Part shown: positions 1,683 to 23,760 of the stretch, piece by piece
How the letters are laid out: each line of letters starts with the position of its first letter
How positions within the stretch are numbered: position 1 is the first letter of the stretch
From: Thiomonas sp. X19
GTDB taxonomy: Bacteria > Pseudomonadota > Gammaproteobacteria > Burkholderiales > Burkholderiaceae_C
Length of the DNA stretch: 64,000 nt
Direction of reading: 5' to 3'
Assembly (NCBI RefSeq): GCF_900089495.1
Contig: NZ_LT605203.1
Span: 2,010,216-2,074,215 of the forward strand
Program-made: the position numbers and the translations under genes
The notes under the pieces: model-generated
Database searches by the model: none
Told to the model about the DNA's origin: nothing
The model's input: only the letters and a program-made list of their open reading frames with translations

Positions 1683-2015
1683 ATGCCCATCATCACCATC
1701 CTGCCGCATCACGAATACTGCCCGCAAGGCGCCAAGGTCGAGGCCGGGCGTGGCACATCCGTGTGCGAAGCCTTGCTGGAGCATGGCATTCCCATCGAGC
1801 ATGCCTGTGAAATGTCCTGCGCCTGCACCACCTGCCACGTCATCGTGCGCCAGGGCTATGCCTCGCTGGGCGAAACCGACGAGAGCGAGGACGATCTGCT
1901 GGACCGTGCCTGGGGCCTGGAGCCCACCTCGCGCCTGTCCTGCCAGGCCATCCTGAGCGATCAGGACGTGACCATCGAGATCCCCAAATATTCGATCAAC
2001 CACGCCAAGGAATAG
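1683..2015 (+). CDS. fdx: ISC-type [2Fe-2S] ferredoxin
   Basis: Adrenodoxin-like ferredoxin of 110 residues that feeds electrons to the ISC iron-sulfur assembly machinery. The cluster ligands are readable: Cys42, Cys48 and Cys51 in HACEMSCACTTCH, and Cys87 in SRLSCQAIL, the same spacing as Escherichia coli Fdx. Length is normal. It lies four bases behind hscA, so the two are cotranscribed. No iscX follows; the next gene is convergent, and only 31 bases separate the two stop codons. Confidence 0.96.
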   Translation: MPIITILPHHEYCPQGAKVEAGRGTSVCEALLEHGIPIEHACEMSCACTTCHVIVRQGYASLGETDESEDDLLDRAWGLEPTSRLSCQAILSDQDVTIEIPKYSINHAKE

Positions 2016-2046: not shown

Positions 2047-3198
2047 TCAGGCGTCGACGTCGGCCCGGGTGAGATACCAGGGGCGGCCCTGCATGACGGC
2101 GCGCATGGGCGCGGTCATGGCGAGAATCAAGGGCTGGGATCGATGTTCGCGCTCGCGTAACCCGGCGCGCAGCAAGAGCGTGACCAGTTCCGCCGGCCCC
2201 ATGAATTCCAGCGAGACGCTGCGATAGCCTTGCCGGCGCGCGTCACGCATGAGCATGCGCAGCAAGACCGGGAGATGTTGCGACGCTGGGTTTGCCGCGA
2301 GCAAGTCGCGCACATGCAGCGATGCGCCATCGGCTTCGCACACGGCATAGCCGAGCAACCTGCCGCCGGGAAGCGTCGGATCGATTCCAAATGTCCTCGG
2401 AGCTGCTGGCGCAACTCCGCTTGCGGACTTCCGGGGGCGCTCGGACGCTGCCCTGCCGATGGTGAAAATGCGGTAGCGATGCAGCGCGGTGGAACGGAAG
2501 CGCCAGTTGAGAAAGGCGCGGTCGCGCACGCCGATGACCCCTGCGTTGCCCACCTGCTGCTCGGCCCACAAGCTGTCGAAACGCGCGTCGGCTTGATCCA
2601 GCCACGCAGCCTGCAAATGCTCCCGCAGCAGCAGCCTGGGCAGCAGCCCGTGGCGCAGTCGCAAGGCGATATCCAGCACGCCACCGAGGCTGCGCCGCAG
2701 CCATCTCGGAAGCCAATTCGGCAAATAGTCCTGCGTGTGCAGCACGCGCACATAGCGGCTCAGGCCGCCGGCAACGTCGAAGCCGGCGCGTTTGACCACG
2801 GGCAGGGACTTGGCATTGGGGAAGCCGTACAGCAGTTCATGCCTTGCCAGGCCCTGCTCCAGCACCGCGCGTTGGAGGGTCAGTGCCGGGAACAGGGTGC
2901 GATGCTGGGTGTTCACGGCGAAGTCCGCCATGAGCCCGGCCCGCACCGAATGCGGCCCGCAGCGCAGGATGCGGGCGCCCAGACCGACGGTGCCGATGGG
3001 CTCCACGCTCTGCCCATGCTTGAGCAACAAGACCTGAGGGACGCCCGCCGGATTGTTGCGGTAGAACCAGTCGAGCTTGGCTTGCCTGCGCTCGGCATGG
3101 CCGAGATTGAACGACCAGAGGGCGACGATCTGCGCTGCGTCTTTGTCGAGATCGGCAGGCTCGACCCGGTAGCTGGCTTGCTCGGGCGCGCTAGCCAC
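2047..3198 (-). CDS. GNAT-fold acyltransferase, last gene of the asnB-ACP cassette
   Basis: About 383 residues from a GTG at 3198 that overlaps the stop of the upstream methyltransferase gene by eight bases (GTGGCTAG). An in-frame ATG at 3270 would give 407 residues but lies deep in the upstream gene. The N-terminal half resembles GNAT acyltransferases: a strand ending IGTVGLGARILRC, then GLMADFAVNTQHR, a region like the acetyl-CoA-binding segment, and LYGFPNAKSLPVVKRAGF. A second GNAT-like half follows (YRSVSLEFMGPAELVTLLLRAGL). Substrate is unknown. The cassette encodes its own carrier protein, so an acyl-ACP donor is plausible but inferred. Translational coupling ties it to the cassette. 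Confidence 0.65.
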   Translation of the reverse strand: MASAPEQASYRVEPADLDKDAAQIVALWSFNLGHAERRQAKLDWFYRNNPAGVPQVLLLKHGQSVEPIGTVGLGARILRCGPHSVRAGLMADFAVNTQHRTLFPALTLQRAVLEQGLARHELLYGFPNAKSLPVVKRAGFDVAGGLSRYVRVLHTQDYLPNWLPRWLRRSLGGVLDIALRLRHGLLPRLLLREHLQAAWLDQADARFDSLWAEQQVGNAGVIGVRDRAFLNWRFRSTALHRYRIFTIGRAASERPRKSASGVAPAAPRTFGIDPTLPGGRLLGYAVCEADGASLHVRDLLAANPASQHLPVLLRMLMRDARRQGYRSVSLEFMGPAELVTLLLRAGLREREHRSQPLILAMTAPMRAVMQGRPWYLTRADVDA

Positions 3199-4180
3199 GA
3201 TCGTTGGCGTTGGCCGCGGCCATGTCGCGCTTCCTTGCGAGCAGCACGCGAATCTGGCCACTGGCGTCACACACGGTTTCCACCGCGTCGAAGCTGGCGT
3301 TCTTGCGCAGCATCTGCTGCATCGCCGGGCCTTGCCCCAGGCCGACTTCGATGCCCAGCCAGCCGCCGGCGCGCAGCAGCGCCGGAGATTCGCGCATCAG
3401 GCGCATCAGAATGTTCACGCCGAACGGACCGCCGTCGAAAGCCAGGGCCGGTTCGTGGCCGATGATTTCCGCCGGCATGGCGTCGAGCTTGGCGGTGGAG
3501 ATATAGGGTGGGGCGGACACGATCAAGTCGATGTGGCCTTGAAACTCCGGGGCATGGAACGGGGCCAGCAGGTCGCCGGTATGCAGCGCGACGCGTTCCC
3601 CCAGTTCCTGCAGCGCCACATTCCTGCCAGCCAGCGCGATGGCCTCGGCCGAGAGATCGGCGCCATGGACGGTCGCCATGGGCTCAGCCGCAGCCAGCGC
3701 CAAGGCCAGATTGCCCGAGCCGCAACACACATCGATGACTTGCGCCGCATCGCGCCATGGCGCCATCTCGCGCAACTTGGCGAGCGCTGCAACGCCGAGC
3801 ATTTCGGTCTCGCGGCGCGGAATCAGCGCCTCGGGCCCGGCGAGCAAATCCAGACCCATGAAACGCTGGCGGCCGGTGAGGTAAGCCACAGGCACGCCTT
3901 GCAGGCGGCGGGCAATCAGCGCGTCAAGTGCAGCCAGTTGCGCGGCGTCCAGCGCAGGCAGGGCTTGGTCGTGCGCTGCCGCAACGGACAAGGCGGAACC
4001 GCCGGCCATGTGCCACAGCGCGCGCAGGCAGGAGTTGGGCGTTTCCTCGGGCTTGTCGGGCAGGGTGGACAAGGCTTGTTCGAGGTGATGCCAGCGCTCG
4101 GCGTAGTCCGCGCCAAGCAGGACAGCGTCATGGCGATGGTTCGCCGGGCCGGTGGCGGTGGGGAGTTGCCTCGTGTTCAA
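3191..4180 (-). CDS. PrmC/HemK-like SAM-dependent methyltransferase with altered NPPY motif
   Basis: About 329 residues if translation starts at the TTG that overlaps the previous gene's stop (TTGA). A longer frame back to 4453 runs inside the upstream gene and is Pro/Arg-rich there, so it is unlikely. The protein follows PrmC closely: PVAYLTGRQRF (about 97-107), IPRRETE (about 120-126), SAM-binding VIDVCCGSGNLAL (about 148-160). The catalytic NPPY of Gln/Asn N-methyltransferases is replaced by APPY (SAPPY about 222-226). In PrmC the Asn holds the substrate amide, so this copy probably does not methylate release factors. The stop overlaps the GNAT gene. Function within the cassette is unknown. 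Confidence 0.75.
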   Translation of the reverse strand: MNTRQLPTATGPANHRHDAVLLGADYAERWHHLEQALSTLPDKPEETPNSCLRALWHMAGGSALSVAAAHDQALPALDAAQLAALDALIARRLQGVPVAYLTGRQRFMGLDLLAGPEALIPRRETEMLGVAALAKLREMAPWRDAAQVIDVCCGSGNLALALAAAEPMATVHGADLSAEAIALAGRNVALQELGERVALHTGDLLAPFHAPEFQGHIDLIVSAPPYISTAKLDAMPAEIIGHEPALAFDGGPFGVNILMRLMRESPALLRAGGWLGIEVGLGQGPAMQQMLRKNASFDAVETVCDASGQIRVLLARKRDMAAANANDRG

Positions 4181-5208
4181 GGCGCATCCTCGGGGCAGAC
4201 CTCCGCCACCGCTTCCACCAGTTGCGGGCGCAGGTGCAGATAGCGGGTGCCACGGCGCTTGGCTTCGATTTCGGTGTAGATGCCCGCAGCGCGCTCCTCG
4301 CTCAAGCCGAGGGCCGCGGCGAGTTCGGCGGCAGGACGTCGATGGTTGTGGGCCCACAGCGCCAGGTCCATGTGCGCATGGGGTAGGGTGAAGTAGAACT
4401 CGTCCTGGCCCTGGGGCAGGCTGTAGGTGTCGGTGGTGGGGGCGGCATGGCACACGGCCGCTGGCAGGCCGAGGTGGCGGGCGAGGGCGTAGACCTGGGT
4501 TTTGTAGAGATGGGCGATGGGTTTGATGTCGGCCGCGCCGTCGCCGTTCTTGACGAAAAAGCCCTGGTCGTATTCCAGCCGGTTGGGCGTGCCCAGCACG
4601 GCGTAGTTCAGCCGGTCGGCATGAAAATATTCCACGGTTTTACGGATGCGCTGCTTGAAGCTGGTGGCCGCGACGATTTGCAGATACTCGCGCAGCGGCA
4701 GGCGCGCGCGCTGCTCCGGGCCGTTGGGCGCCTGCACGACGAGGTCGAAGAAATGCACCTTGCCGGCCGAGCCACCGGCAATCGCGATCTTGCTTTTCCA
4801 GGCGTCGTCGTAATCAGGGAACAGGGTGCGGATGGCGTCGTCGCGCCAGCGGTAGCACCCGATGGCAGCGAGCGTGGGGGCAATGTTCTCGGTGGCGCAG
4901 CGCAGGCCGAGCTGGGTTGCGACGGCTGCGCCCAGATCGGCGCTGTCGGGGCTGGAGTCCTGCTCCGGCATGAGCAGGCCCTGCACCTTCTCCGGTCCCA
5001 GCGCGTGCACCGCCAAGGCCGCGCAGACGGAGCTGTCCACCCCGCCCGACAGGCCCAGCACCACGCCGCGCTTGCGCATGGCCGCCAGGCTGGTGCGCAG
5101 ATGCTGGCCGATGCGTTCGACCTCGGCCGCGCAGTCGAGCGCGAACACGGCGGGGGTCAGCAGCACCGCGGGGTTTGGCGCCGTGGCAGCTTGGGTTGTT
5201 GCGCTCAC
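4177..5208 (-). CDS. NadE-like PP-loop ATP pyrophosphatase (ammonia-dependent NAD synthase family)
   Basis: About 343 residues from a GTG that overlaps the ACP stop as GTGA. The PP-loop SGGVDSS is at residues 54-60, and LNYAVLGTPNRLEYDQGFFVKNGDGAADI is cut here as the NadE signature region (NRLEYDQGF then KNGDG), followed by IKPIAHLYKTQV. No glutaminase domain is present, so ammonia must come from elsewhere. NAD synthases adenylate a carboxylate and make an amide. The setting, sandwiched between an ACP and a methyltransferase gene and behind an asparagine synthase gene, suggests a pathway role rather than NAD making, but a housekeeping nadE cannot be excluded because no other copy is in view. 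Confidence 0.8.
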   Translation of the reverse strand: MSATTQAATAPNPAVLLTPAVFALDCAAEVERIGQHLRTSLAAMRKRGVVLGLSGGVDSSVCAALAVHALGPEKVQGLLMPEQDSSPDSADLGAAVATQLGLRCATENIAPTLAAIGCYRWRDDAIRTLFPDYDDAWKSKIAIAGGSAGKVHFFDLVVQAPNGPEQRARLPLREYLQIVAATSFKQRIRKTVEYFHADRLNYAVLGTPNRLEYDQGFFVKNGDGAADIKPIAHLYKTQVYALARHLGLPAAVCHAAPTTDTYSLPQGQDEFYFTLPHAHMDLALWAHNHRRPAAELAAALGLSEERAAGIYTEIEAKRRGTRYLHLRPQLVEAVAEVCPEDAP

Positions 5209-5468
5209 GCCGCGACCTTGGTCTGGTGCTTGCGCTGCACATAGGCCTCGATGGCGTTCAGGCTGTCGAGGTTCTCGGGCACCATCTCGGCGTCCAGCAC
5301 CTGGATGCCGAACGTCTCTTCCAGGAACAGGATGAGTTCGAGGATGCCGGTGGAGTCGACGATGTGCAGGTCGAGCAGGGAATCGGCGTCGGTGAACGGT
5401 GTGCCGTCCGAACCCATGATGAAGTTGTCGTCGATGTAGCGTCGAACCTGGTACTTGGTATCGGACAT
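5205..5468 (-). CDS. Stand-alone acyl carrier protein
   Basis: 87 residues from the ATG at 5468; a longer frame upstream starts inside the ligase gene. The protein is small and acidic, and its predicted phosphopantetheine site is Ser39 in LHIVDSTGILEL, where the usual DSL is DST. It would be loaded by the ligase gene 47 bases upstream. Its stop overlaps the start of the NadE-like gene (GTGA), which predicts coupled translation. It differs from fatty-acid AcpP, which normally carries DSLDTVEL and sits in the fab cluster, so this is a dedicated pathway carrier. Confidence 0.85.
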   Translation of the reverse strand: MSDTKYQVRRYIDDNFIMGSDGTPFTDADSLLDLHIVDSTGILELILFLEETFGIQVLDAEMVPENLDSLNAIEAYVQRKHQTKVAA

Positions 5469-5515
5469 GGTGTTCTCTGTGTTGATTTTTTGGCCTGGAG
5501 AAACGGGGATCGGTC

Positions 5516-7069
5516 TCAGCGCATCCCCGTTTTTCTGATCTTGCCGGTATCGGTGCGGGGCAGGCTGGCGGCGAACTCCACCCATTTTGGCACCATGAAG
5601 TTTTCCAGCCGTGCATGGCAGTGCTTGATGATGTCGCGCTCGGTGTAGGCGCGCCCCGGCGCCAGCACGATGAAGGCCTTCACCGCCTGGCCGAGCAGGG
5701 TGTCGTCCACCCCGACCACGGCCACTTCCAGCACGCCCGGCAACTCGTGCAGCACGTTTTCCACCTCACGCGGGCTGACCTTCTCGCCACGACTTTTGAT
5801 GATGTCGTCCTTGCGGCCAACGAAGTACAGCCAGCCCTCGGCGTCGGTGCGAAACACGTCGCCCGAGTACAGCACCATCTCACCCGCAAGCGGCCCGGGC
5901 CGCAGGCGCTCGGCGGTCTCAGCAGGCTTGTTCCAGTAGCCGCGCATGACATGGCTGCCGCGTATGACCAGCTCGCCGGTGCTGCCGTTGGGCAGGCAGT
6001 GTCCGGCCTCATCCACTAGCCAAACTTCTTCATTAGGCATGCCACGCCCCACGCTGGTGGGGCGAATGTCGAGCTGATCGGGCGGCAGATATGTGACGCG
6101 CTTGCATTCGGTCAGGCCATACATGGAGTACAGCGTGGCTTGCGGGAACAGCGCGCGAATGCGGCGGATATGCGCCTCCGGCAAGGCGGCGGCGGTGTTG
6201 GTGATCAGGCGCAGGCGGGAGAGGTCGAAGTCGGCCATGTTGTCCAGCGCGGTGAGCAGCGCGAACATGGTGGGTACGCCGGGGAACACCGTGACGCCTT
6301 CGTGCGCCATGGTCTGCAACACCTTCACCGGATAGGTGAACGAGCGTTCCAGCACCACGGTGGCACCAAGCTTGAACGCCATCAGCACCTGGTAGAGCCC
6401 GTAGTCGAACGCCAGCGGCAGGGCGCAGGCGATGATGTCGTCCTCGCGCAGGCCGAGGTACTGGCTCACGGACTGTTGCGCCGTCACCATGTTCAGGTGC
6501 GTGAGCATCACGCCCTTGGGGTGGCCGGTGGAGCCGGAGGTGTAGATGATGGCGGCCAGGTCTTGGTCGATCACAGCAGCGTCCAGCTTGGGCAACGATG
6601 TGTTCGAAGGCCGTGGCGCGGGGTAGGGCAGGCGCGCGGCGTGGCCGATGGTGCCGTTTGCTTCGCCGCTTGGCGTTTCGTCGCCCACCATCCAGCAGCG
6701 GTGCACGCTGGGCGCGTGCGCCAGGGCTTCGCGTGCAACGCTGGCCAGCGCGGTTTGCGTCACCAGGCCGCTGGCTTGGGCGTCGTTCAACATGTAGGCC
6801 AGCTTGTCGGCCTTGGTCAGGGTGTTGACCGGCATGAACACCGCGCCCACTTGCAGCACCGCGAACACGGCTGCGACCATCTCTTCGGAGTTGTCGAGAA
6901 ACAGCGCCACGCGGTCGCCGCGACGAATGCCGTGCTGGTGCAGGCTGAGTGCCAGTGCCTCGGCCTGCGCGGCGATGTCGGCATAGCTGCTGCGCCGGCC
7001 TTCACGCACGAGCGCGGTTTTGGCGGGAAGGCGAACTGCGGTGGTGGCGAAAAAGTCGTGGAGCAGCAC
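5516..7069 (-). CDS. AMP-forming acyl/amino-acid ligase of the ANL superfamily
   Basis: Adenylate-forming enzyme of about 517 residues from GTG 7069 (VLLHDFFATTAVRLP). The only ATG is at 7282, inside the upstream gene. The P-loop is YTSGSTGHPKG at about 175-186. Core motifs YSMYGLTECKRVTYL, GELVIRGSHVMRGYWN, YSGDVFRTDAEGWLYFVGRKDDIIKSRGE (cut: YSGD, GRKDDIIKSRGEK) and the C-terminal Lys in RTDTGKIRK are all present. It should adenylate a carboxylate and pass it to the ACP encoded next. It resembles ligases found in exosortase-associated clusters, but no exosortase gene is here. Substrate cannot be read from sequence by eye. Confidence 0.85.
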   Translation of the reverse strand: MLLHDFFATTAVRLPAKTALVREGRRSSYADIAAQAEALALSLHQHGIRRGDRVALFLDNSEEMVAAVFAVLQVGAVFMPVNTLTKADKLAYMLNDAQASGLVTQTALASVAREALAHAPSVHRCWMVGDETPSGEANGTIGHAARLPYPAPRPSNTSLPKLDAAVIDQDLAAIIYTSGSTGHPKGVMLTHLNMVTAQQSVSQYLGLREDDIIACALPLAFDYGLYQVLMAFKLGATVVLERSFTYPVKVLQTMAHEGVTVFPGVPTMFALLTALDNMADFDLSRLRLITNTAAALPEAHIRRIRALFPQATLYSMYGLTECKRVTYLPPDQLDIRPTSVGRGMPNEEVWLVDEAGHCLPNGSTGELVIRGSHVMRGYWNKPAETAERLRPGPLAGEMVLYSGDVFRTDAEGWLYFVGRKDDIIKSRGEKVSPREVENVLHELPGVLEVAVVGVDDTLLGQAVKAFIVLAPGRAYTERDIIKHCHARLENFMVPKWVEFAASLPRTDTGKIRKTGMR

Positions 7070-7163
7070 GGTTTGGGCGGGGCTGAAACAGTGATGAGGA
7101 AAGGGGAACCCGGTCGTGCCGTGAGTGAGATGTTTGAGTGCGCGAGACAGAACGCAAACGAGC

Positions 7164-9149
7164 TTACGGGAAGGCCGCCAGCCGGGCCTCCCGCGCTTGC
7201 GGGGTGGGTGATGGCGGGGCAAAAAACTGTTGATGCAGCAGCATCGTGGACAGCACGCCGACGAAAGCCATGTTGTCGGCAAAGCCGATGGCCCGCCCGG
7301 CCTGGCATTTGGCGAACAGCTTGCTCACCGCAGCGGGGTCGAAATAGCCGGCATCGGCAATGGCGCCCGGGCTCATCAGTTCGGCGGCGTAATCCACCGG
7401 CTTGCCTTGCTCGAAAAAACTCTGGCTGTCGGGGGCGCGGTAGGGTTGCTTGGTGCGGGTGCGCAGGGTCTCGGGCAGCAGGCCGCGCATGGCGCGTTTG
7501 AGCAGCCATTTCTCGGTCAGGCCCATGAGCTTGTAGCGCGGCGGCAGCCGGTTGGCGAAGGCGATGAGGCGGTGGTCCAGAAACGGAAAACGGCCCTCGA
7601 TGGAATGCGCCATGGCCATGCGGTCGCCCTGCGAGCACAGCAGGTAGCCGCTCATCAGGGTGTGGGCCTCGATGTACTGGTCTTGCTGCAGCGCCTGCCA
7701 GTGCGCGAACTCGGGCGGCACCTGGCTGGCGATGGCTTGCAGCGCGTTCCAGTCGCCCAGTTCGGTGCGCACGGCGGGCGAGAAAAACTGCCAGGTGCGC
7801 TGCGTCGTGGTCCAGCGGGGCAGGTGGCCGAAGCCGGGCCGGCCCAGATGTTCGGCGCCATCGGCAAAAAAACGCTGCGCCAGCGCGCGGCCGGCCGCGG
7901 GGGAATGCTGCAGATAGGGATAGAGCCGGTCCAGCAGCGCGCCGCGCCAGGCGGACTGCGGCTGCCGCGCCATGAAGCGCCGCACCCGCGCCTCCTTGAA
8001 CAAGTCGTAGCCGCCGAACACTTCGTCCGCGCCTTCGCCGGTGAGCACCACTTTGTAGCCGCTGTCGCGCACATGCCCGGCCAGCAGCATCAGCGGTGCC
8101 GGCGCGGTGCGCAGGATGGGCGATTCGGCATGGAATACGGCCAGCGGAAAAGCTGCGGCAATGTCAGCCCGGGTGCAGTGCAGGGTGCTGTGCTCGCAGC
8201 GCAGGTGGCCCACCAGCAGGCGCTGCTCGGCGCTCTCGTCGAACTCGGCGTCGTCGAAGGTGAGCGAAAAGGTGCGCAGCGGGGTGCTGGTGTGGTGGTG
8301 GATGAGGGTGGTGATGACCGACGAATCCAGCCCGCCGCTGAGGTAGGCGCCCACCGGCACGTCGGCGCGCAGTTGCAGGCGCACGCAGTCGATCAGCAAC
8401 TCGCGCAGCGCCTCCGCGGCTTCGTCCGCATGGGCGTAGGGCTCGGCAGATTCAGCGCCTTGCGCTGGAAAGCTCCAGTCCCAGTAACGCCAGGTACGCG
8501 AGCCCTGCGCGTCCACCGCCATGCACTCGCCCGGCCCCAAACTCTGCACGCCGGCGAACACCGCATGCGGCGACAGCGGCGCCCAGGTGGTGAAAATTTC
8601 GCCCAGCGCCTGGACGTCAAGCCTGCGCGGCACCTCCGGCAGCGCGAACAGCGCCTTCACCTCCGAGGCAAAGGCGAAGCGGCCACCCATGGGTCCACCA
8701 AGCTGTGTGAAAAACAGCGGGCGTATGCCCACGCGGTCGCGCGCCAGCAGCAGACGTTGGCGGCGGGCATCCCACAGCGCGAAAGCGAACTGGCCGTTCA
8801 GGTGCTCGACGCAGGCGTCGCCATATTCCACATAGGCGTGAAGAATGACTTCGGTGTCCGAGCGCGTGGCGAAGCGGTGGCCACGCGCTTGCAGGCTGCG
8901 CCGCAGTTCCACATGGTTGAAGATTTCGCCGTTGAACGTGAGCCACAGATGGCGTTCGGCATTCGCCATGGGCTGCACGCCGCCTTCGAGGTCGATGATG
9001 CTCAGGCGCGCATGCCCCAGCGCAATCGGGCCTTCATGGTGGATGCCGCTCGCATCCGGGCCACGGTGATGCAGGCGTTGCGTCATGGCACGCACCTCGG
9101 CCGGGTCGGGCGCATGCCGCCAATCCAGAATGCCTGCAATGCCACACAT
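7164..9149 (-). CDS. Asparagine synthase-like glutamine amidotransferase
   Basis: 661 residues in two domains. The class II glutaminase domain begins MCGIAGILD, giving the N-terminal nucleophile Cys2, and contains HHRGPDASG and FNGEIFN. The synthetase domain carries the PP-loop SGGLDSS at about 270-276 and TGEGADEVFGGYD. It should hydrolyse glutamine and use the ammonia to amidate an adenylated carboxylate. It is the first gene of the cassette; the ligase start is 95 bases after its stop. Enzymes of this type serve as AsnB and also as pathway amidotransferases, for instance in making malonamoyl starter units, so the substrate here need not be aspartate. Confidence 0.85.
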   Translation of the reverse strand: MCGIAGILDWRHAPDPAEVRAMTQRLHHRGPDASGIHHEGPIALGHARLSIIDLEGGVQPMANAERHLWLTFNGEIFNHVELRRSLQARGHRFATRSDTEVILHAYVEYGDACVEHLNGQFAFALWDARRQRLLLARDRVGIRPLFFTQLGGPMGGRFAFASEVKALFALPEVPRRLDVQALGEIFTTWAPLSPHAVFAGVQSLGPGECMAVDAQGSRTWRYWDWSFPAQGAESAEPYAHADEAAEALRELLIDCVRLQLRADVPVGAYLSGGLDSSVITTLIHHHTSTPLRTFSLTFDDAEFDESAEQRLLVGHLRCEHSTLHCTRADIAAAFPLAVFHAESPILRTAPAPLMLLAGHVRDSGYKVVLTGEGADEVFGGYDLFKEARVRRFMARQPQSAWRGALLDRLYPYLQHSPAAGRALAQRFFADGAEHLGRPGFGHLPRWTTTQRTWQFFSPAVRTELGDWNALQAIASQVPPEFAHWQALQQDQYIEAHTLMSGYLLCSQGDRMAMAHSIEGRFPFLDHRLIAFANRLPPRYKLMGLTEKWLLKRAMRGLLPETLRTRTKQPYRAPDSQSFFEQGKPVDYAAELMSPGAIADAGYFDPAAVSKLFAKCQAGRAIGFADNMAFVGVLSTMLLHQQFFAPPSPTPQAREARLAAFP

Positions 9150-9952: not shown

Positions 9953-11263
9953 CTAGACCAGCCCTTCGAACGGCAAAAAATCCACCATCTCCCCCGCCTG
10001 CACGCTGCCTTGTTCGTGGTGCAGGACGATGAAGCCGTCGGCCTCGCTCATGGAGCGCAGGATGCCGGAGCCCTGGTCGCCGGTGGTGCGGGCGCTGTAG
10101 CGGCCGGGTTGGTCAGGCAGGGGGGTGAGCACGGCGCGCTGGTATTCGGTGCGGCCGGGGCGTTTGCGCAGGGTGGTTTGTGCCGCGACCGGCAGCAAGG
10201 GCAGGGGCTTGATGGGCGCGCCCATCATGTGCAGCAGGGCGTCGCGGACGAAGGCGTAGAACGTGACCATCACCGCCACGGGGTTGCCGGGCAGGCCGAA
10301 CAGCACGGCACGGCGGCCGTGGCTGGCGATGCTGCCGAAGGCCATCGGGCGGCCGGGGCGCATGGCGATGCGCCAGAACGCCACGTCCCCGAGCGCGGCC
10401 ATGACGCTGCGCAGGTGGTCGGCCTCGCCGACGCTGACGCCGCCGGAGGTGATGACGGCGTCGGCGTTTTCGCAGGCCTGGCGCAGCGCGGCCTCGAGCA
10501 GCGCGGGGTCGTCGCGCACCACGCCGAGGTCGAGCACGTCGCAGCCCAGGCGCTGCAGCATGGCCCAGAGGGTGTAGCGGTTACTGTCGTAGACGCAGCC
10601 CTCACTCAGCGGCTGGCCGATGGAGCGCAGTTCGTCGCCACTGGACAGAAAGGCCACGCGCAGACGGCGCCACACCATGACCTCGGCTTGGCCGAGCGAG
10701 GCGATGAGCCCGATGTCGGCCGGACGCAGGAGCTTGCCGGCCAGCAGCGCGGGCTGGCCGGCGCGCAGGTCTTCGCCGCGCATGCGGGCGTTGTCGCCGC
10801 GTTTGAGCACGCCGGCGGGGATGTGGACCTGTCCGCCCTCGACGCGGCAGAACTCTTGCGGCACGACGGTGTCGCAGCCGGCGGGCAGCACGGCGCCGGT
10901 CATGATGCGCAGGCAGCTTCCCGCGGCAACGTCGCCGCTGAACTCATGCCCGGCCAGACCGGTGCCGGCGATGCGCAAGGTTGCTGCGCCATCGGCGCCG
11001 AGGTCGCCGGAGCGCAAGGCGTAGCCGTCCATGCCGGAGTTGTTGTGGGCGGGAACGTCCATCGGCGCGATGACGTCTTCGGCCAGCACCCGGCCGAACG
11101 CGGCGCGCAGGTCCACGCGCTCGGCCACGCGCACGGGCTGCACGAAACGGCGGATGACTTCCTGCACCTTGTCCACCGGCAGGGCCTTGGGGTCGTAGCC
11201 GCTGACGCAACTGACGACCTGGGCGAGATCGGGGGGAGGCACGGCGCTGGAGGAAGCTGGCAT
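9953..11263 (-). CDS. moeA: Molybdopterin molybdotransferase MoeA
   Basis: 436 residues. Inserts molybdenum into adenylylated molybdopterin in the last step of molybdenum cofactor synthesis. Readable landmarks are VPAHNNSGMDGYALR near the N-terminus, RIMTGAVLPAGCDTVVPQE, ITSGGVSVGEADH and the FGLPGNPVAVMVTF loop of the MoaB/MogA-like domain. Ten bases separate it from mobA upstream, so moaA-mobA-moeA form one minus-strand operon. Length is normal for the family. Confidence 0.95.
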   Translation of the reverse strand: MPASSSAVPPPDLAQVVSCVSGYDPKALPVDKVQEVIRRFVQPVRVAERVDLRAAFGRVLAEDVIAPMDVPAHNNSGMDGYALRSGDLGADGAATLRIAGTGLAGHEFSGDVAAGSCLRIMTGAVLPAGCDTVVPQEFCRVEGGQVHIPAGVLKRGDNARMRGEDLRAGQPALLAGKLLRPADIGLIASLGQAEVMVWRRLRVAFLSSGDELRSIGQPLSEGCVYDSNRYTLWAMLQRLGCDVLDLGVVRDDPALLEAALRQACENADAVITSGGVSVGEADHLRSVMAALGDVAFWRIAMRPGRPMAFGSIASHGRRAVLFGLPGNPVAVMVTFYAFVRDALLHMMGAPIKPLPLLPVAAQTTLRKRPGRTEYQRAVLTPLPDQPGRYSARTTGDQGSGILRSMSEADGFIVLHHEQGSVQAGEMVDFLPFEGLV

Positions 11264-11272
11264 GGCGTGGCT

Positions 11273-11896
11273 TTAGCGGACGGTTGGGGCCGGGGAGGGA
11301 GCGGCCTGTTCCAGCGCGCGCAGTTCGGGCAGGGAATTGACGTTCTCGAAATCGCCGGGATGGTCGAAATCGACTTCCACGGTGTGCAGGGTGGCGGTCC
11401 AGGCGTCGATCTTGCTGCCGCCGCCATCGAGAAAACACGTCAGGCTTTCCAGCAGATCGGCGCGCAGCAGGCAGAACACGGGCTGGGTGCGTCCGCCCAC
11501 ACGTGCCATCGCCACCTCGGCCGATGCGTCAACCGCGCCTTGCCCCAGGCGCTGAGCCAGGTCGAGCGGGAACAGCGGGCTGTCGCAGGGCACGGTGAGC
11601 AGCCAGTGGGTGTCGCAATGCGTCAACCCCGTGGCGAAGCCGGCCAGTGGTCCGGCATAGGCCAGCGGGTCGGCGTCGGGCCAGACCGGCACGCCGAAAG
11701 CCTCGTAGGCGGCAAGATTGCGGTTGGCGTTGATCATCACCATGCACACCTGGGCCTGCAGCCGCAGCAGCGCGTGCATGGCCAGTGGCAGGCCGCGAAA
11801 GGGTTGCAGGCCCTTGTCGTTGCCACCCATGCGTGAGCCACGCCCGCCAGCAAGAATGAGGCCGGTGATGGCATCCGGTGCAAGGGTTTCAGGCAT
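11273..11896 (-). CDS. mobA: Molybdenum cofactor guanylyltransferase MobA
   Basis: 207 residues from ATG 11896 (MPETLAPDAITGLILAGG). Transfers GMP from GTP to the molybdenum cofactor, making the bis-MGD form used by DMSO-reductase-family enzymes. The nucleotidyltransferase signature LAGGRGSRMGGNDKG is at residues 15-29, and the conserved VPCDSPLFP follows. An upstream in-frame extension to 11989 exists but carries no family sequence. Sits between moaA and moeA on the same strand. Confidence 0.94.
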   Translation of the reverse strand: MPETLAPDAITGLILAGGRGSRMGGNDKGLQPFRGLPLAMHALLRLQAQVCMVMINANRNLAAYEAFGVPVWPDADPLAYAGPLAGFATGLTHCDTHWLLTVPCDSPLFPLDLAQRLGQGAVDASAEVAMARVGGRTQPVFCLLRADLLESLTCFLDGGGSKIDAWTATLHTVEVDFDHPGDFENVNSLPELRALEQAAPSPAPTVR

Positions 11897-11989
11897 GGTG
11901 GACTCAGGTTGCGGGTGGGTGCATGGGGTTCGCCTGGCGGGCGGGATTTCACGAACGTCAAGACGAGGCACGCCGGCGCCACGGCGCAA

Positions 11990-13126
11990 TCAACCGCCGA
12001 TATACGACATCTCCACCCGGCGCTCGGCGCGCTGGGTCCGGGCCGCAGCGCTGCCGCGCAACTCGGAATAGCGGTCGTCACGCCGGCTCCACACCTGGGC
12101 GATGGCGGCCTGCAAGTCGGCGTCGCTCGCCTGTTGTATGCCTTGTTGCGGGTCGCCGCGCAGCAGGGCGCGCAGGTCGTGGCCGTGGCTGGCGAAGAGG
12201 CAAAGGTAGAGCTTGCCTTCCATCGACAAGCGGGCGCGGTTGCAGTCGTGGCAAAAGGCCCGGGTGACGCTGGAGATGGCGCCAATTTCAAGGCTGCCGT
12301 CGTCCAGCAGCCAGCGCTCGGCGGTTTCGCCCAGCACGGTGGGGTCGAGCGCGTGCAGCGGGTGGCGCTGGGCAATGCGCGCCAGCAACTCGGCCGAGGG
12401 CAGGACCTGATCCATGCGCCAGCCGTTGGTGTTGCCCACGTCCATGAATTCGATGAAGCGCAGCACCACGCCGCTGCCGCGGAAATGCTCGATCATGGGC
12501 AGAATCTGGTCGTCGTTCACACCGCGCTGCACCACCATGTTCACCTTCACCGGACGCAGTCCGGCGGTCTGCGCCGCGGCGATGCCTTCCAGCACGGTTT
12601 GCAGCGGGAAGTCCATATCGTTCATGCGGCGGAAGACGGCGTCGTCAATGGCGTCCAGGCTCACGGTCACGCGGTGCAAACCGGCCCGCGCCAGTGCTTC
12701 GGCCTTGCGCGCGAGGATGGAGGCGTTGGTGGTCATGGTCAGTTCCACCGGCTCGCCGTCCGGCGTGCGGATGGCGGCGAGCATGGCCACCAGGTCCTCC
12801 ACGCCCTTGCGCAGCAGCGGCTCACCGCCGGTGATGCGCAGTTTGCGCACGCCCAAGCTGACGAACACGCGCGCCAGGCGCTCGATTTCCTCGAAGCGCA
12901 GCAGATCGGCGTGGCGCAGGAATTCGTAATGCGCGTCGAACGCCTCTTTCGGCATGCAATAGGTGCAGCGGAAATTGCAGCGATCGGTGATGGAGATGCG
13001 CAGATCGTGCAGCGGCCGGCCCAACTTGTCGGCCAGCAGCGCACCGGGCGCGTGGGAGTGCGCGGGAACGGCCGGCACGCTGGAGGCGTAGCGGTGATCG
13101 ACGATGGGAATGGTTCGCTCGGACAT
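11990..13126 (-). CDS. moaA: GTP 3',8-cyclase MoaA
   Basis: Radical SAM enzyme of about 378 residues that starts molybdopterin synthesis by rearranging GTP with MoaC. The SAM cluster is Cys50, Cys54 and Cys57 in CNFRCTYCM. The second, C-terminal cluster has two Cys in [11 protein letters not shown] and the third in YLCLFA. The chain ends in Gly-Gly (SYIGG), as required for activity in this family. Start [10 protein letters not shown] was chosen over the longer frame to 13174. No moaC, moaD or moaE is in the window. Confidence 0.95.
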
Positions 13127-13291
13127 ATCGACATTATCGGCAAAGACCGTCTGCCTGGGGGTTGCGGGCGCCATGCCCGCACGCTGCGCGGGCGCTGGGC
13201 AGCATCGCGGCGTTGTTGCGACGCGGCATCGCTCGTACTATGGCTGCATGCCGTGGCCGGCGCCGCAAGTGCGGTTCAGGCCTGCCCGTTG

Positions 13292-13337: not shown

Positions 13338-14120
13338 ATGGCATATTCCATCGACTTATCCGGCCGCGTGGCGCTGGTGACCGGCGCCTCCAGCGGCCTT
13401 GGCTGGCAGTTTGCCCGCGTGCTGGCGCAAGCTGGCGCCGGCGTGGTCTTGGCGGGGCGGCGCACCGAGCGGCTGAAGGAGTTGCGTGCCCACATCGAGG
13501 CCGAGGGCGGCGACGCCCATGTGGTGAAGCTGGACGTGACCGACACCGGCAGCATCGGCGCGGCCGTGGCCCATGCCGAGACCGAGATGGGCAATATCGA
13601 CATTCTGGTCAACAACTCGGGCATGTCGGTGGCGCGCAAGCTCACCGAGATTTCGCCCGACGATTACGACCGCATGTTCGACACCAACACGCGCGGCGCC
13701 TTCTTCGTCGCACAGGAAGTGGCCAAGCGCATGATCGCCCGTTCCAAGGGAGCAGCGCCGGGCACCTGGGCGGGCGGGCGCATCATCAACATCGCTTCCA
13801 TGGCCGGGTTGCGCGTGCTGCCGCAGATTGGCGTGTACGCCATGAGCAAGGCCGCCGTGGTGCACATGACGCGGGCCATGGCGCTGGAGTGGGGGCGCTA
13901 CGGCATCAACACCAACGCCATCTGCCCCGGCTACATCGACACCGAGATCAACCACGGCCACTGGGCCACCGAAGCCGGCCAGAAACTCATCGACATGCTG
14001 CCGCGCAAGCGTGTGGGCAAACCCGAAGACCTGGACGGCGTGCTGTTGATGCTGGCCAGCGGCCAGAGCCACTTCGTCAACGGCGCGGTGATTGCCGCCG
14101 ACGACGGCTTCGGCGTCTGA
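13338..14120 (+). CDS. Short-chain dehydrogenase/reductase
   Basis: 260 residues, classical SDR. NAD(P)-binding TGASSGLG at 15-22, NNSG in the structural Asn motif, and the catalytic pair Tyr167 and Lys171 in YAMSKAA. The C-terminal half ends near a NGAVIAADDGFGV segment typical of FabG-like members. The start ATG follows a good ribosome-binding site (agaagagag). Directly downstream are a thioesterase and an acetoacetyl-CoA synthetase gene on the same strand, so a role in 3-hydroxyacyl or 3-ketoacyl metabolism is likely. Exact substrate unknown. Confidence 0.85.
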   Translation: MAYSIDLSGRVALVTGASSGLGWQFARVLAQAGAGVVLAGRRTERLKELRAHIEAEGGDAHVVKLDVTDTGSIGAAVAHAETEMGNIDILVNNSGMSVARKLTEISPDDYDRMFDTNTRGAFFVAQEVAKRMIARSKGAAPGTWAGGRIINIASMAGLRVLPQIGVYAMSKAAVVHMTRAMALEWGRYGINTNAICPGYIDTEINHGHWATEAGQKLIDMLPRKRVGKPEDLDGVLLMLASGQSHFVNGAVIAADDGFGV

Positions 14121-14138
14121 GACCGACACGACCGAGCG

Positions 14139-14561
14139 ATGCATCTCGATCTTCCCGAGCGCAAGCGGCCTGTTTTCGACATCGTCGTTCCCATACGCTG
14201 GGGCGATATGGACGCGATGGGCCATGTCAACAACACGGTGTACTTCCGCTACATGGAAATTGCCCGGCTGGACTGGCTGAGCAGCCTGGACATGGGCGCT
14301 GCGCCGCAAGGGCAGGGGCCGGTCATCGTCAACGCCTTTTGCAATTTTCACCAGGAACTGCGCCACCCGGGCGATGTGCGGGTCAGCATGTTCGTCGCCA
14401 ACCCCGGGCGCAGCAGCTTCGACACCTTCTATGAGCTGCGCCGCACCGACGACGCCACGACGCTCTACGCCAGCGGCGGCGCCAAGACGGTGTGGATCGA
14501 CCATGCCCTGCGCAAAAGCGCGCCGCTGCCCGAGGAACTGCGGCGGCTGATTGCGAGCTGA
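14139..14561 (+). CDS. Acyl-CoA thioesterase of the 4-hydroxybenzoyl-CoA thioesterase type
   Basis: 140 residues, single hotdog fold. The signature WGDMDAMGHVNNTVYFRYME carries the acidic residue and HVNN pattern of YbgC/FadM-like thioesterases, which hydrolyse acyl-CoA thioesters in the cytosol. It starts 18 bases after the SDR stop and is followed by the acetoacetyl-CoA synthetase gene 46 bases on, so the three probably form an operon. Substrate chain length cannot be told. Confidence 0.85.
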   Translation: MHLDLPERKRPVFDIVVPIRWGDMDAMGHVNNTVYFRYMEIARLDWLSSLDMGAAPQGQGPVIVNAFCNFHQELRHPGDVRVSMFVANPGRSSFDTFYELRRTDDATTLYASGGAKTVWIDHALRKSAPLPEELRRLIAS

Positions 14562-14607
14562 TGAACAGCGGGCCCAAGCCTGCGAAACCCTTGTTGGAGG
14601 AGACAGC

Positions 14608-16629
14608 ATGAACGCACCGCTCACGCTCGAGCAAAACCAGCCGCTCTGGCAGCCCAGCCCCGAACGCATCGCCGCGGCGCATGTCACGGCGTTTCGCCAG
14701 TTCGTCAACCAGCGCCGCGGCCTGCAACTGGTGGACTACGAAGCCCTGTGGCAATGGTCCATCCACAACCTGGGCGACTTCTGGGGCGCGGTCTGGGATA
14801 GCTCCGACGTGAAAGCCGAGCATCGCGGCGAGCGGGTTTACCTGCCGGCCGACAGCATGCCCGACGCCCGTTTCTTCCCCGACGCCCGGCTCAATTTCGC
14901 GCAGAACCTGCTGCGCCGCAAGGACGACCTCACCGCCATCCTGTTCTGGGGCGAAGACAAGGTGCGGCGTGAACTGAGCTGGCGGCAACTGCATGCCGAA
15001 GTCTCGCGCATGCAGCAATGGCTGGCGGCGCAGGGCGTGGGTCCGGGCGACCGCGTCGCGGCCTATCTGCCCAATCTGCCCGAAGCCATCATCACCATGC
15101 TCGCGGCCAGCAGCCTGGGGGCGATGTTCACCTCGGCCTCGCCCGATTTCGGCGCTCAGGGCCTGATCGACCGCTTCGGCCAAGTGCAGCCGAAAGTGCT
15201 GGTGGCTTGCGACGGTTATTTCTACGCCGGCAAGACCGTGGACGTGCGCGACAAACTGGCCGAGGCCGTTCCCCGGCTGGAAAGCCTGCAAGCCGTGCTC
15301 ATCGTGCCCTATGTGGCCCAAGCGCTGGGCGCACGCACCGACTTGGCCGCCATCCCCAAGGCCAGGTTGTGGGCCGAAGCACTGGCGCCCTTTGCCGGCG
15401 GCGAGGTGCGCTTCGTGCAACTGCCTTTCGACCACCCGCTCTATATCCTGTATTCCAGCGGCACCACGGGTGTGCCCAAGTGCATCGTGCACCGTGCCGG
15501 TGGCGTGCTGCTCAAGCACCTGAGCGAAATGCGCCTGCATGCCGATGTGCACACCGGCGACCGCGTCTTCTACTTCACCACTTGCGGCTGGATGATGTGG
15601 AACTGGCTGGTCTCGGCCCTCACGCAAAGCGCGACGCTGTGCCTCTACGACGGCTCGCCATTCGCGGCTGGCGGCAACATCCTGTTCGACTATGCCGACG
15701 CGGTCGGCATGACGCATTTCGGCACGTCGGCCAAGTTCATCGAGGCCATGGACAAGGCCGGGCTGGAGCCGATCAAAACCCATCAGCTCAGCGCCTTGCG
15801 CAGCGTGTTTTCCACCGGCTCGCCGCTGGTGGCCGAGGGTTTCGACACGGTGTACCAGCGCATCAAGCGCAATGTCTGCCTGAGTTCCATTTCCGGCGGC
15901 ACCGATCTGGTGAGTTGCTTCACCCTCGGCACCCCGACCCATCCGGTGTGGCGCGGCGAGATCCAGGCAGCCGCCTTGGGCATGGCCGTGGCCGTGTTCG
16001 ACGAAGACGGCAAGCCCCTGCCCGATGGGCAAAAGGGCGAGCTGGTCTGCACCCAGCCCTTTCCCACCATGCCACTGGGCTTCCTGGTGGACGGCAGCAT
16101 GGACAAGGGACGCAGCAAATACATGGACGCCTACTTCACCCGCATGCCCGGGGTGTGGCACCACGGCGACTACATCGAGCGCACGGCGCACCATGGCTAC
16201 ATCATCTATGGCCGCTCCGACGCCACGCTCAACCCGGGTGGGGTGCGCATCGGCACGGCGGAAATCTATCGCCAGGTGGAGCAACTGCCAGAGGTGGTGG
16301 AGTCCCTGGTCATCGGCCAGAACTGGCCGCCCGGCACCTACAACGACGTGCGCGTGGTGCTGTTCGTCAAGCTGCGCGAGGGCCTGGAGTTGGACGAGGC
16401 GCTCATCAACCGCATCAAGCTGGCCATTCGCAACAACACCACGCCACGCCACGTTCCCGCCCGCGTGGTGCAGGTGCACGACATTCCCCGCACCAAGAGC
16501 AACAAGATTGTGGAGCTGGCGGTGCGCAATCTGGTGCATGGCGAGCCGGTGAAAAACCTCACCGCCCTGGCCAACCCGGATGCACTGGACGAATACCGCC
16601 AGCTCAAGAACGAGTTGGAAGCGTCCTGA
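14608..16629 (+). CDS. Acetoacetyl-CoA synthetase
   Basis: 673 residues from ATG 14608, which follows a strong site ggaggaga; an upstream in-frame extension lacks one. Activates acetoacetate with ATP and CoA. It is an ANL ligase with the N-terminal cap (LWQPSPERIAAAHVTAF, YEALWQWSIHNLGDFW) special to acetoacetyl/propionyl-type synthetases. The P-loop is YSSGTTGVPKCIVH, then YFTTCGWMMWNW, and the adenylation-site GDYIER and GRSDATLNPGGVRIG. The catalytic Lys near the end is in IPRTKSNKIVE. With the SDR and thioesterase it suggests acetoacetate salvage or polyhydroxybutyrate turnover. Confidence 0.9.
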   Translation: MNAPLTLEQNQPLWQPSPERIAAAHVTAFRQFVNQRRGLQLVDYEALWQWSIHNLGDFWGAVWDSSDVKAEHRGERVYLPADSMPDARFFPDARLNFAQNLLRRKDDLTAILFWGEDKVRRELSWRQLHAEVSRMQQWLAAQGVGPGDRVAAYLPNLPEAIITMLAASSLGAMFTSASPDFGAQGLIDRFGQVQPKVLVACDGYFYAGKTVDVRDKLAEAVPRLESLQAVLIVPYVAQALGARTDLAAIPKARLWAEALAPFAGGEVRFVQLPFDHPLYILYSSGTTGVPKCIVHRAGGVLLKHLSEMRLHADVHTGDRVFYFTTCGWMMWNWLVSALTQSATLCLYDGSPFAAGGNILFDYADAVGMTHFGTSAKFIEAMDKAGLEPIKTHQLSALRSVFSTGSPLVAEGFDTVYQRIKRNVCLSSISGGTDLVSCFTLGTPTHPVWRGEIQAAALGMAVAVFDEDGKPLPDGQKGELVCTQPFPTMPLGFLVDGSMDKGRSKYMDAYFTRMPGVWHHGDYIERTAHHGYIIYGRSDATLNPGGVRIGTAEIYRQVEQLPEVVESLVIGQNWPPGTYNDVRVVLFVKLREGLELDEALINRIKLAIRNNTTPRHVPARVVQVHDIPRTKSNKIVELAVRNLVHGEPVKNLTALANPDALDEYRQLKNELEAS

Positions 16630-16705
16630 CTTGGGATCGGCCTGATGGGCGGCCTGATTCGTGGCTTGCTGCCTGGGTTGCAGCCCGATGCAACCCAGGC
16701 TGATC

Positions 16706-17542
16706 TCAGCGCACCGCCCACTTCGCCCGCCACGCCGACCACAGCTTGCGCGTGGGCGTGAGGTCGATGCGTCGCCCCAGCAGGTCGTAGTCTTCGCGCT
16801 CCATTTCGCGTAGCAAGGCATGCGCCATCCTGGACAGTGCCACGGCGGGCCGAGCAGCCATGCCCATGCCCTTCGGGCGCAGCGCATCGGCCGTCACCAG
16901 CGCGGCCTGGGCGCGTGTGGCGGCGTCGCGCAGCAGCGCGCGCACTTGCGGTGAATCCGTACCGTCCAGCAACTGGCGTGCCTTCACCTCATGCGTGGCC
17001 AAGGCGTCCACAGGCAGGAAGATCCAGCCTCGGCGCAGGTCGCGCCCGACGTCGCGCACCAGGTTCACCTGGGCCAGGGCCGCGCCCAGCGCTTGCGCGT
17101 AATCGAGCGCCGGGGGGGCGCTCTGCCCAGCGAGCAGGCAGGCGACACGGGCCACCTGGCCGGGTCCGTCGCCGAGGTGGCGCAGCAGTCCCTGCCAGTC
17201 CAGCCAGCGGTTTTGCCGCAACACCTCCTCAACCTGCGCCAGCGCCTGCAGCATGGGTTCAGGTGGCACATCAGCCGCTTTCAGTGCCGGTTGCAAGGTC
17301 AGCAGCAGGGGGTGATCGGGCCGCCCATCCCGACATTGACCGATCTGCACCTCCCACCAGGCCAGCTTGGCAGCCGCCACCCCAGCGTCCGTCACGCCGT
17401 GGGGAATGCTGCGCACGGCCCGCCACCACGCTTGCAGCGCGAGCAGAGGCTGGCGTTGCGCTGGCGGTAGCTGCAGCGTGGCGTAGTACCACGACGTGCC
17501 GCGTGGGGCGAAACCCGTTGCGGGTGGATTTTCAGGCTGCAT
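16706..17542 (-). CDS. Squalene/phytoene synthase-family protein without first Asp motif
   Basis: 278 residues. N-terminal GTSWYYATLQLPPAQR and VTDAGVAAAKLAWWEVQI align with bacterial prenyl-head-to-head synthases, and the second Asp-rich motif is present as VNLVRDVGRDLRRGWIFLP. The first motif (normally DDxxD just before VTDAGVA) is replaced by RSIPHG. That motif binds magnesium and the diphosphate of one substrate, so this protein may have no condensing activity. No other isoprenoid gene is adjacent; it is divergent from tRNA-Leu. Confidence 0.8.
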   Translation of the reverse strand: MQPENPPATGFAPRGTSWYYATLQLPPAQRQPLLALQAWWRAVRSIPHGVTDAGVAAAKLAWWEVQIGQCRDGRPDHPLLLTLQPALKAADVPPEPMLQALAQVEEVLRQNRWLDWQGLLRHLGDGPGQVARVACLLAGQSAPPALDYAQALGAALAQVNLVRDVGRDLRRGWIFLPVDALATHEVKARQLLDGTDSPQVRALLRDAATRAQAALVTADALRPKGMGMAARPAVALSRMAHALLREMEREDYDLLGRRIDLTPTRKLWSAWRAKWAVR

Positions 17543-17703
17543 GGGGTCTCATGGCTGTGGGGTGGGTTGCTTCGTGCGGAGGCCCGCGCAGGCCAGAGGA
17601 TAAAATAGAGCGTTTGCCGATGGCGCAGTGCAGTCTTGCATCCGGCTTGCGATGGCGATGGCCGCAGTTCGCAAGCGTGCAGGCATGTTGCGCCTGGTCC
17701 CTT

Positions 17704-17790
17704 GCGAGGGTGGCGAAATTGGTAGACGCACCAGGTTTAGGTCCTGACGCCTTCACCGGCGTGGGGGTTCGAGTCCCCCCCCTCGCACCA
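17704..17790 (+). tRNA. tRNA-Leu (anticodon UAG)
   Basis: 87 bases. Acceptor gcgaggg pairs with ccctcgc before A-CCA, which is encoded. The D arm contains ggtagac, the anticodon loop tttaggt gives UAG, a long variable arm is present as in class II tRNAs, and the T arm carries ggttcgagtcc. It lies 35 bases upstream of tig. Confidence 0.97.
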
Positions 17791-17825
17791 CGGCATCCTC
17801 ATTCTTTTTCACGATCGGAATTCCC

Positions 17826-19145: not shown

Positions 19146-19161
19146 GGCAGGCATCCGAGGG

Positions 19162-19202
19162 GCCGCCCGCCTGCCGTTTGCACGGTGGCCGGGCGGCTTT
19201 TT
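19162..19202 (+). terminator. Rho-independent terminator after tig
   Basis: Stem gccgcccg at 19162-19169 pairs with cgggcggc at 19190-19197, followed by five T. It sits 17 bases past the tig stop and 100 before clpP. Confidence 0.85.
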
Positions 19203-19301
19203 CATGGGGATGTCATGCCTGTGTGGCAGGTTTTCGCGGCAGGGTTCCAAGCACAGTCGGTGCCATGCTAACCTTGCCTCATTCCATTGAAATGCAGATC
19301 C

Positions 19302-19910: not shown

Positions 19911-19960
19911 GACGCTCGTTTCAAGGCGCGTCATTCACCCAGTCTTTCAAGCAACCGGCC

Positions 19961-21229: not shown

Positions 21230-21315
21230 AGCCTTTCCCGCCAGAGCACGCGGGTTGCCTTGTAATCCGGGCTTGATGCCCCATTTGCAGTTCATTCCAT
21301 TCAAGGGTGCTCCCC

Positions 21316-23760
<2,445 letters not shown>

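Follow-up and report, generated by a model that had tools for sequence, protein, structure and literature searches.

A six-gene carrier-protein operon of Thiomonas sp. X19 with a NadE-like enzyme, a candidate tailoring module for a cell-surface polysaccharide

What does a bacterium that already encodes a NAD synthetase do with a second, NadE-like enzyme whose gene shares an operon with a ligase and an acyl carrier protein (ACP)? This question is raised by a stretch of 64,000 nucleotides from Thiomonas sp. X19 (the window), in which a tandem array of six open reading frames (ORFs) on the minus strand (2047-9149) encodes an AsnB-type amidotransferase, an AMP-forming ligase, the ACP, the NadE-like enzyme, a PrmC-like methyltransferase and a GNAT transferase. 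We tentatively propose that this operon is a tailoring module for an XrtA-type cell-surface polysaccharide, detached in this genome from the polysaccharide locus, a reading whose chances we put just short of even. The gene linkage on which it builds is strong; the chemistry is a proposal.

Conservation and polysaccharide context of the cassette

A profile of the NadE-like family was searched in a genome collection and gave at least 563 stretches, the best 80 of which, together with L008 from the same order, made up 81 loci; genes in these loci were called by a codon-usage script, not a published gene finder. According to tblastn, the ligase lay within 3 kb of the NadE-like gene in 76 loci, the ACP within 6 kb in 76 and AsnB within 6 kb in 64, and all three were found within 6 kb in 47 of the 59 loci with sufficient flank. 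The methyltransferase occurred in 38/81 loci, and methylation is thus optional. The GNAT family of the window was present in 20/81 loci, a second GNAT cluster in 13 and either of them in 33. When a coverage rule was applied, all six families were found in 13/81 loci and at least four in 71/81. Among 20 control regions (20 kb each, at round coordinates in 12 of the relatives' genomes), one contained the ligase and none contained NadE, AsnB, ACP, methyltransferase or GNAT. A preliminary description of this DNA had named co-conservation of the six families as a check on its reading, and the co-occurrence holds. The six-gene set recurs in many water and soil bacteria. Its presence is patchy, since the NadE-like gene was found in only 2/399 genomes of the order (including this one) and 18/28 of the genus, which points to an accessory module. 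The ligase was matched at E 1e-110 or better in 4/399 genomes of the order, two of which have no NadE-like gene. The nearest NadE-like proteins come from Thiomonas-type bacteria: the protein of a metagenome-assembled genome (L009) shares 91% identity, and the one from Thiomonas delicata (L010) 82%.

In about a fifth of the relatives, the cassette is linked to exopolysaccharide genes. Two or more XrtA-type marker clusters were found in 17/81 loci, and in 12/81 when the clusters resembling outer-membrane proteins (OMP) and ATPases were left out. The markers were chain length (TIGR03007), kinase (TIGR03018), export (TIGR03027), deacetylase (TIGR03006), ATPase-like and OMP-like clusters, each named from one scanned member; the OMP (56.6 vs 90.85) and ATPase (296.3 vs 324.5) members scored under their cut-offs. 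A CE4 polysaccharide deacetylase gene stands directly before AsnB in seven loci, and a FemAB gene directly after NadE in four, one of which (L032) encodes a TIGR03019 protein (402 bits).

The genome of Thiomonas sp. X19 itself carries an XrtA-type polysaccharide locus at C3:312405-344499, 1.7 Mb from the operon (Table 1). It contains genes for a polyketide synthase (PKS), a nonribosomal peptide synthetase (NRPS) and a phosphopantetheinyl transferase (PPTase). In L057, the counterpart of this locus encloses a quartet of AsnB, ligase, ACP and NadE genes, flanked by those for the ATPase (56%) and a glycosyltransferase (51%). All six families accompany a PKS/NRPS fragment (55%), EpsB_2, TviC and TviB (638 bits over 592) in L070, and a single 21-kb stretch of L032 holds all six together with a PPTase-like protein (37%), NRPS, chain-length, kinase, deacetylase and FemAB genes. 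Homologues of the polysaccharide locus were found in 22/81 loci vs 0/20 controls (tblastn, coverage rule; Fisher p 0.006), and in 26/81 loci by ORF count. Homologues of its export, OMP, ATPase, chain-length, kinase and PKS genes occur together in four cassette-bearing genomes of the Thiomonas clade (G399, G400, G402 and G428); the fifth (G401) showed only export and OMP genes, on a short contig.

No exosortase was matched in the whole genome by TIGR02602, a model that was positive in 8/19 relatives. The preliminary description had stated that exosortase, polyketide and NRPS genes are lacking. The first part thus stands for the whole genome by this model; the rest is true of the operon (the remainder of the window was not scanned) and fails for the genome, where PKS and NRPS genes lie in the distant locus. 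As a separate observation, two 461-aa ORFs (C3:324058-325443 and C3:285026-286411) have identical first 45 residues and are perhaps one transposase (unscanned); one copy lies between the kinase-like and PKS genes.

Features of the encoded enzymes

The NadE-like protein belongs to the NAD_synthase family (NF002048, 474.7 over 313; TIGR00552, 138.7 over 63.65). When it was aligned with solved NAD synthetases, two stretches matched and about 50 extra residues between them did not; in an AlphaFold model (pLDDT 81) the extra part forms strands between 138 and 170. One of the aligned structures, 3fiu, is FtNadE*, a nicotinamide mononucleotide (NMN) synthetase. The NAD synthetase signature (T207, N209, E212, G216, F217, K220, GDG222-224, AD226-227 and K236; we assume the residue roles, placed by eye) is kept in at least 97% of 82 aligned sequences, so that the conversion of a carboxylate and ammonia to an amide is predicted to be likely kept. 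A separate NadE-type ORF of 607 aa lies at C3:3455462, and a separate full-length NadE was found in 18/19 relatives, the exception (G416) being a draft genome. Since another NadE is present in these genomes, the NadE-like enzyme is probably dispensable for the cellular NAD supply, and its candidacy as the cell's only NAD synthase was rejected. It is therefore like NadE in sequence family and active-site signature, and unlike it in being a paralogue beside the canonical enzyme, in its extra segment and in its tie to ligase and ACP genes.

AsnB was recognised as an Asn_synthase (TIGR01536, 503.5 bits over a cut-off of 267; TIGR03108, 448, under a cut-off of 817) and retains the glutaminase start (MCGI) and the PP-loop (SGGLDSS). 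The ligase matched the AMP-binding family (TIGR03098, 481 bits, under a cut-off of 592). Among solved structures, its top sequence matches were NRPS adenylation domains, and lower ones were acyl-CoA, anthranilate and beta-aminoacyl-ACP synthetases. It has the catalytic Lys and, at the column aligned by eye with the amine-binding position of NRPS adenylation domains, an Asp, which we take to be the residue holding the substrate amine; the pocket positions are likewise our assumption. Asp-bearing ligases form one side of a single tree branch. As the group of 40 rows was selected by this Asp, its conservation there is no finding; the remaining pocket columns are near-invariant (Y, Y, P/A, I/V, N, M, R, V and the catalytic K), with 39/40 rows agreeing for most and the odd row being an unrelated second ligase of L077. 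The ACP gave only scores below cut-off (NF052616, 45 bits, cut-off 130; PP-binding, 13 bits, cut-off 20.8), and its VDST phosphopantetheine site is conserved in relatives. The OlsH/OlsI ornithine-lipid route, prompted by the sub-cut-off ACP match, was set aside.

The methyltransferase scored just above the PrmC cut-off (TIGR03534, 200.2 bits vs 199.1) and shares N-terminal motifs with the PrmC/HemK glutamine methyltransferases. It differs from them in having APPY where PrmC has NPPY and in being a third paralogue, beside two other PrmC/HemK proteins of the genome, one of which has a better PrmC score (256.6 bits); that it is the cell's only PrmC was therefore rejected. In 39 rows, including the window, the motif was NPPY in 16, APPY in 13, LPPY in 9 and a gap in one; the first residue is thus A or L, not N, in 22/39 aligned methyltransferases. 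Weaker matches among solved structures include apramycin N-methyltransferase (E 2e-5), suggesting that HemK-type enzymes may act outside protein synthesis. Across 76 rows, the Asp-type ligase and the methyltransferase were both present in 38 and both absent in 36, with two exceptions (Fisher p 3e-19). Nine loci on the same ligase branch have Ser or Asn instead of Asp and lack the methyltransferase. As the tree shows a single change of the ligase trait, this association amounts to one event, and the view that the two traits are independently linked was rejected. L061, one of the two exceptions, also carries an Asp-type ligase, and L043, L062, L074 and L077 (ligase at a contig end) have an Asp-type ligase and no methyltransferase in the available DNA.

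The GNAT of the window had no Pfam match up to E = 1 and none in NCBIfam; weak GNAT Pfam matches were found in one relative. Its AlphaFold model (pLDDT 89) resembles two-domain transferases, and Foldseek matches in a viral library, the only one searched, were N-myristoyltransferases and a FemAB protein at TM about 0.4-0.5. The model and these matches support a GNAT fold of the 383-aa transferase. In the window and seven near loci, F or Y replaces G in the GNAT motif RxxGxA, which we take to be the CoA-binding loop; with this replacement, an ACP-borne donor would be more plausible than CoA. Profile comparison places the two GNAT groups in one family (probability 99.8%, 327/362 columns). In L011, L052, L053, L059, L064, L076 and L085, the locus of the cassette has the second group together with a KAS III-like synthase, a label from one scanned member that scored under its cut-off, and an additional small ACP-like protein.

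The cassette is divided in other Thiomonas-type genomes. Eleven Thiomonas-type loci have the ligase, ACP, NadE and methyltransferase genes and no AsnB in the available DNA. AsnB was found elsewhere in 11/11 of these genomes (66-71% identity, some being fragments at contig ends), and AsnB of this kind in 15/15 genomes searched. The distant AsnB is adjoined by a window-type GNAT in 7/8 regions examined, and the eighth has a weak match to the other GNAT group there. In one genome (L097, L022) about 10 kb separate the AsnB-GNAT pair from the ligase, and in L096 the pair lies beside moaA, as the AsnB of the window is near moaA. These results indicate two units, AsnB-GNAT and ligase-ACP-NadE-methyltransferase, which are joined in one operon in the window, and suggest that the two units are an acceptor half and a donor half.

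Gene layout and neighbourhood

The intergenic gaps from asnB to the GNAT gene are 94, 47, -4, -4 and -8 bases, and the overlaps among the last four genes are GTGA, TTGA and GTGGCTAG. The six minus-strand genes and these overlaps had been noted in the preliminary description, with which the ORF coordinates and gap lengths agree. The GC content of the third codon position is 0.80-0.89 in the six genes vs 0.63-0.75 in four long antisense ORFs.

Table 1. Genes of the cassette (window positions) and of the distant polysaccharide locus (C3 positions)
Feature	Position	Strand	Product	Basis or score
asnB, AsnB-type glutamine amidotransferase	7164-9149	minus	661 aa, ATG	TIGR01536, motifs
Stand-alone AMP-forming ligase	5516-7069	minus	517 aa, probable GTG	AMP-binding, pocket columns
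ACP	5205-5468	minus	87 aa, ATG	phosphopantetheine site in VDST
NadE-like amide synthase without glutaminase domain	4177-5208	minus	343 aa, GTG	NF002048, alignment, model
PrmC/HemK-like methyltransferase	3191-4180	minus	329 aa, TTG	TIGR03534, APPY for NPPY
Tandem-GNAT transferase	2047-3198	minus	383 aa, GTG	AlphaFold model, Foldseek
Export gene	C3:316773			TIGR03027, 211 over 180
Chain-length gene				TIGR03007, 417 over 279
TIGR03013 gene				477 over 393
TviC-like enzyme				best match 422.7, under cut-off 760
TviB-like enzyme				best match 491.8, under cut-off 592
EpsB_2, putative OMP, ATPase-like and kinase-like genes				
PKS			2438 aa	AMP-binding, KS, AT, two PP-binding stretches, class-III aminotransferase domain
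NRPS			1669 aa	
HetI-like PPTase				117 bits of 370
Two hydrolases				weakly like exosortase-associated ones
Glycosyltransferase-like gene; Wzx-like protein				

The operon is flanked on one side by a ferredoxin-like ORF (1683-2015, plus strand; labelled from the ORF sequence with no family scan) and on the other by moeA, mobA and moaA (9953-13174, minus strand). Mo-cofactor genes thus adjoin the operon, and genes named from sequence as molybdenum hydroxylase subunit-like lie near the cassette in L027, L036, L065 and L066; no link between the cassette and such genes was found in the window and these four relatives. Further along the minus strand, the region 13356-23517 contains an HpnD-like presqualene synthase gene (16706-17542, 202 bits, under its cut-off), and the seven other long ORFs scanned there, some of which may be spurious, had no NCBIfam match.

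Proposed role and alternatives

The nearest described systems include the XrtA/PEP-CTERM exopolysaccharide system, which comprises the TIGR03098 ligase, the TIGR03108 amidotransferase, two hydrolases (1 and 2) and FemAB. Its ligase and amidotransferase are of the same kinds as those of the cassette, in which NadE, PrmC-like and tandem-GNAT genes are added. The two are also alike in that the cassette lies among such genes in the 17 loci described above and in that XrtA-type assembly genes are found in the same genome. They differ in that the ligase and AsnB of the window fall under the TIGR03098 and TIGR03108 cut-offs and that neither exosortase (TIGR02602) nor FemAB (TIGR03019) was found in this genome. 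Full-text searches of open papers, some aimed at parts of the set and none covering subscription journals, returned no description of the whole set; the preliminary description had not recognised it as a described pathway. A term search in the text of Haft 2006 (PMC1569441) gave no passage.

A parallel for the amidotransferase is the Wbp/Vim linking-sugar pathway of Porphyromonas gingivalis. According to the passages of PMC7468200 on this pathway, WbpS, which is of the AsnB type, amidates a uronic acid, and its loss leaves uronic acid instead of uronamide; VimE is a putative deacetylase; VimA matches N-acetyltransferases and the FemAB of PEP-CTERM systems and sets serine vs glycine on the sugar. 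The authors speculate there on a similar compound in exosortase systems. The deacetylase before AsnB and the FemAB after NadE in the relatives thus match the activities of VimE, WbpS and VimA as these passages give them. In contrast, the same passages do not name a ligase, ACP or NadE, and the GNAT of the window is not TIGR03019. As reported in part of PMC3684757, a Rubrivivax embRS mutant with a disrupted wbpS-like gene showed partly planktonic growth and an altered colony form. The donor side resembles lincosamide synthetase, in which, in the passages of PMC4351081 considered here, LmbC, an adenylation enzyme that stands alone, charges a carrier protein with an amino acid destined to be coupled to an amino sugar; the condensing proteins are different, and an amidotransferase-NadE pair does not appear in these passages.

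We infer the following scheme, the simplest one in which all six genes take part, including its substrates, the order of its steps, the assignment of the enzymes to donor or acceptor and the joint work of the module with the distant locus. The TviB/TviC-like enzymes would supply a uronic acid sugar nucleotide. In the donor half, the ligase would adenylate a small amine-bearing acid and load it on the ACP, the NadE-like enzyme would amidate a second carboxylate of this acid, and the PrmC-like enzyme would in some cases methylate one of its nitrogens. In the acceptor half, AsnB would amidate the uronic acid of the sugar, as WbpS does, and the GNAT would take the ACP-bound acyl group and join it to an amine on this sugar. 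The preliminary description had read the genes as one pathway that tethers an acid to the ACP, amidates it, methylates it and moves it to an acceptor. Loading, modification and hand-over by ligase, ACP and GNAT fits our scheme. A single linear route on one substrate is doubted, in view of the division of the cassette in the 11 Thiomonas-type loci, the presence of the methyltransferase in fewer than half of the loci and its APPY motif in the window, the 17 loci among XrtA-type exopolysaccharide genes and the polysaccharide locus with PKS and NRPS genes in this genome.

Several observations weigh against a polysaccharide-tailoring role. In the lineage of the window, the cassette is not adjacent to polysaccharide genes, and the cassette-bearing genome G456 has no TIGR03027 match. 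The VimA-related FemAB (TIGR03019) was absent from the scan of this genome, with a positive control in G405. No homologue of the polysaccharide locus was found in the available DNA of 59/81 loci, and two or more were found in 13/81 vs 0/20 controls, which is not significant (p 0.07). Since the 80 loci were the closest among at least 563 relatives, shared ancestry inflates the counts. The link between Asp-type ligase and methyltransferase rests on one tree change. Finally, the kept signature of NAD synthetases means that a pyridine nucleotide could be the substrate of the NadE-like enzyme.

The last point leads to a very improbable alternative, in which the NadE-like enzyme genuinely makes NAD or NMN, as a second synthetase of the cell, and merely travels with the ligase and ACP. 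The near-complete retention of the signature residues would be expected of such an enzyme; on the other hand, it would be redundant beside the other NadE, it has the extra segment, it is confined to two genomes of the order, and the ligase is its close neighbour in 76/81 loci. A somewhat less remote, still distinctly improbable reading is that AsnB and the NadE-like enzyme share a substrate, with AsnB feeding ammonia to the glutaminase-less NadE-like enzyme. AsnB directly precedes NadE in three loci, two of which (L060 and L067) lack the ligase and ACP in DNA cut by contig ends, but AsnB keeps its own synthase motifs, and in Thiomonas-type genomes its gene lies with that of the GNAT, away from NadE. 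The main rival, which we consider unlikely, holds that the cell's own PKS/NRPS receives an unusual amidated amino acid from the module, so that the product would be a lipopeptide or small molecule, not a decorated polysaccharide. The genes for an NRPS, a HetI-like PPTase and a hybrid PKS with AMP-binding, PP-binding, KS, AT and aminotransferase domains do share one locus of this genome; such PKS/NRPS genes accompany the cassette in L070, L032 and L027 and lie elsewhere in four other cassette-bearing Thiomonas-clade genomes. However, these genes are themselves within the polysaccharide locus, they occur in only 3/81 loci by ORF count, and an ACP and a transferase are already part of the cassette.

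The tailoring of a surface polysaccharide is thus the reading that we tentatively retain. To our knowledge, neither the repeating units of XrtA-type polysaccharides nor the compound joined to proteins by exosortases is known. It is conceivable, at a low probability, that the module makes the amine-bearing acceptor that exosortases use for PEP-CTERM proteins. This acceptor would be an N-acylated uronamide sugar whose acyl part two amide-forming enzymes assemble on a dedicated ACP, and Thiomonas, having no sortase, would keep it as a decoration of its polysaccharide. In the NadE-like enzyme, a paralogue of NAD synthetase probably serves a carrier-protein pathway, and the compact, widely shared set of ligase, ACP and NadE-like genes, in a genome with no detected exosortase, offers a clean handle on a surface sugar.

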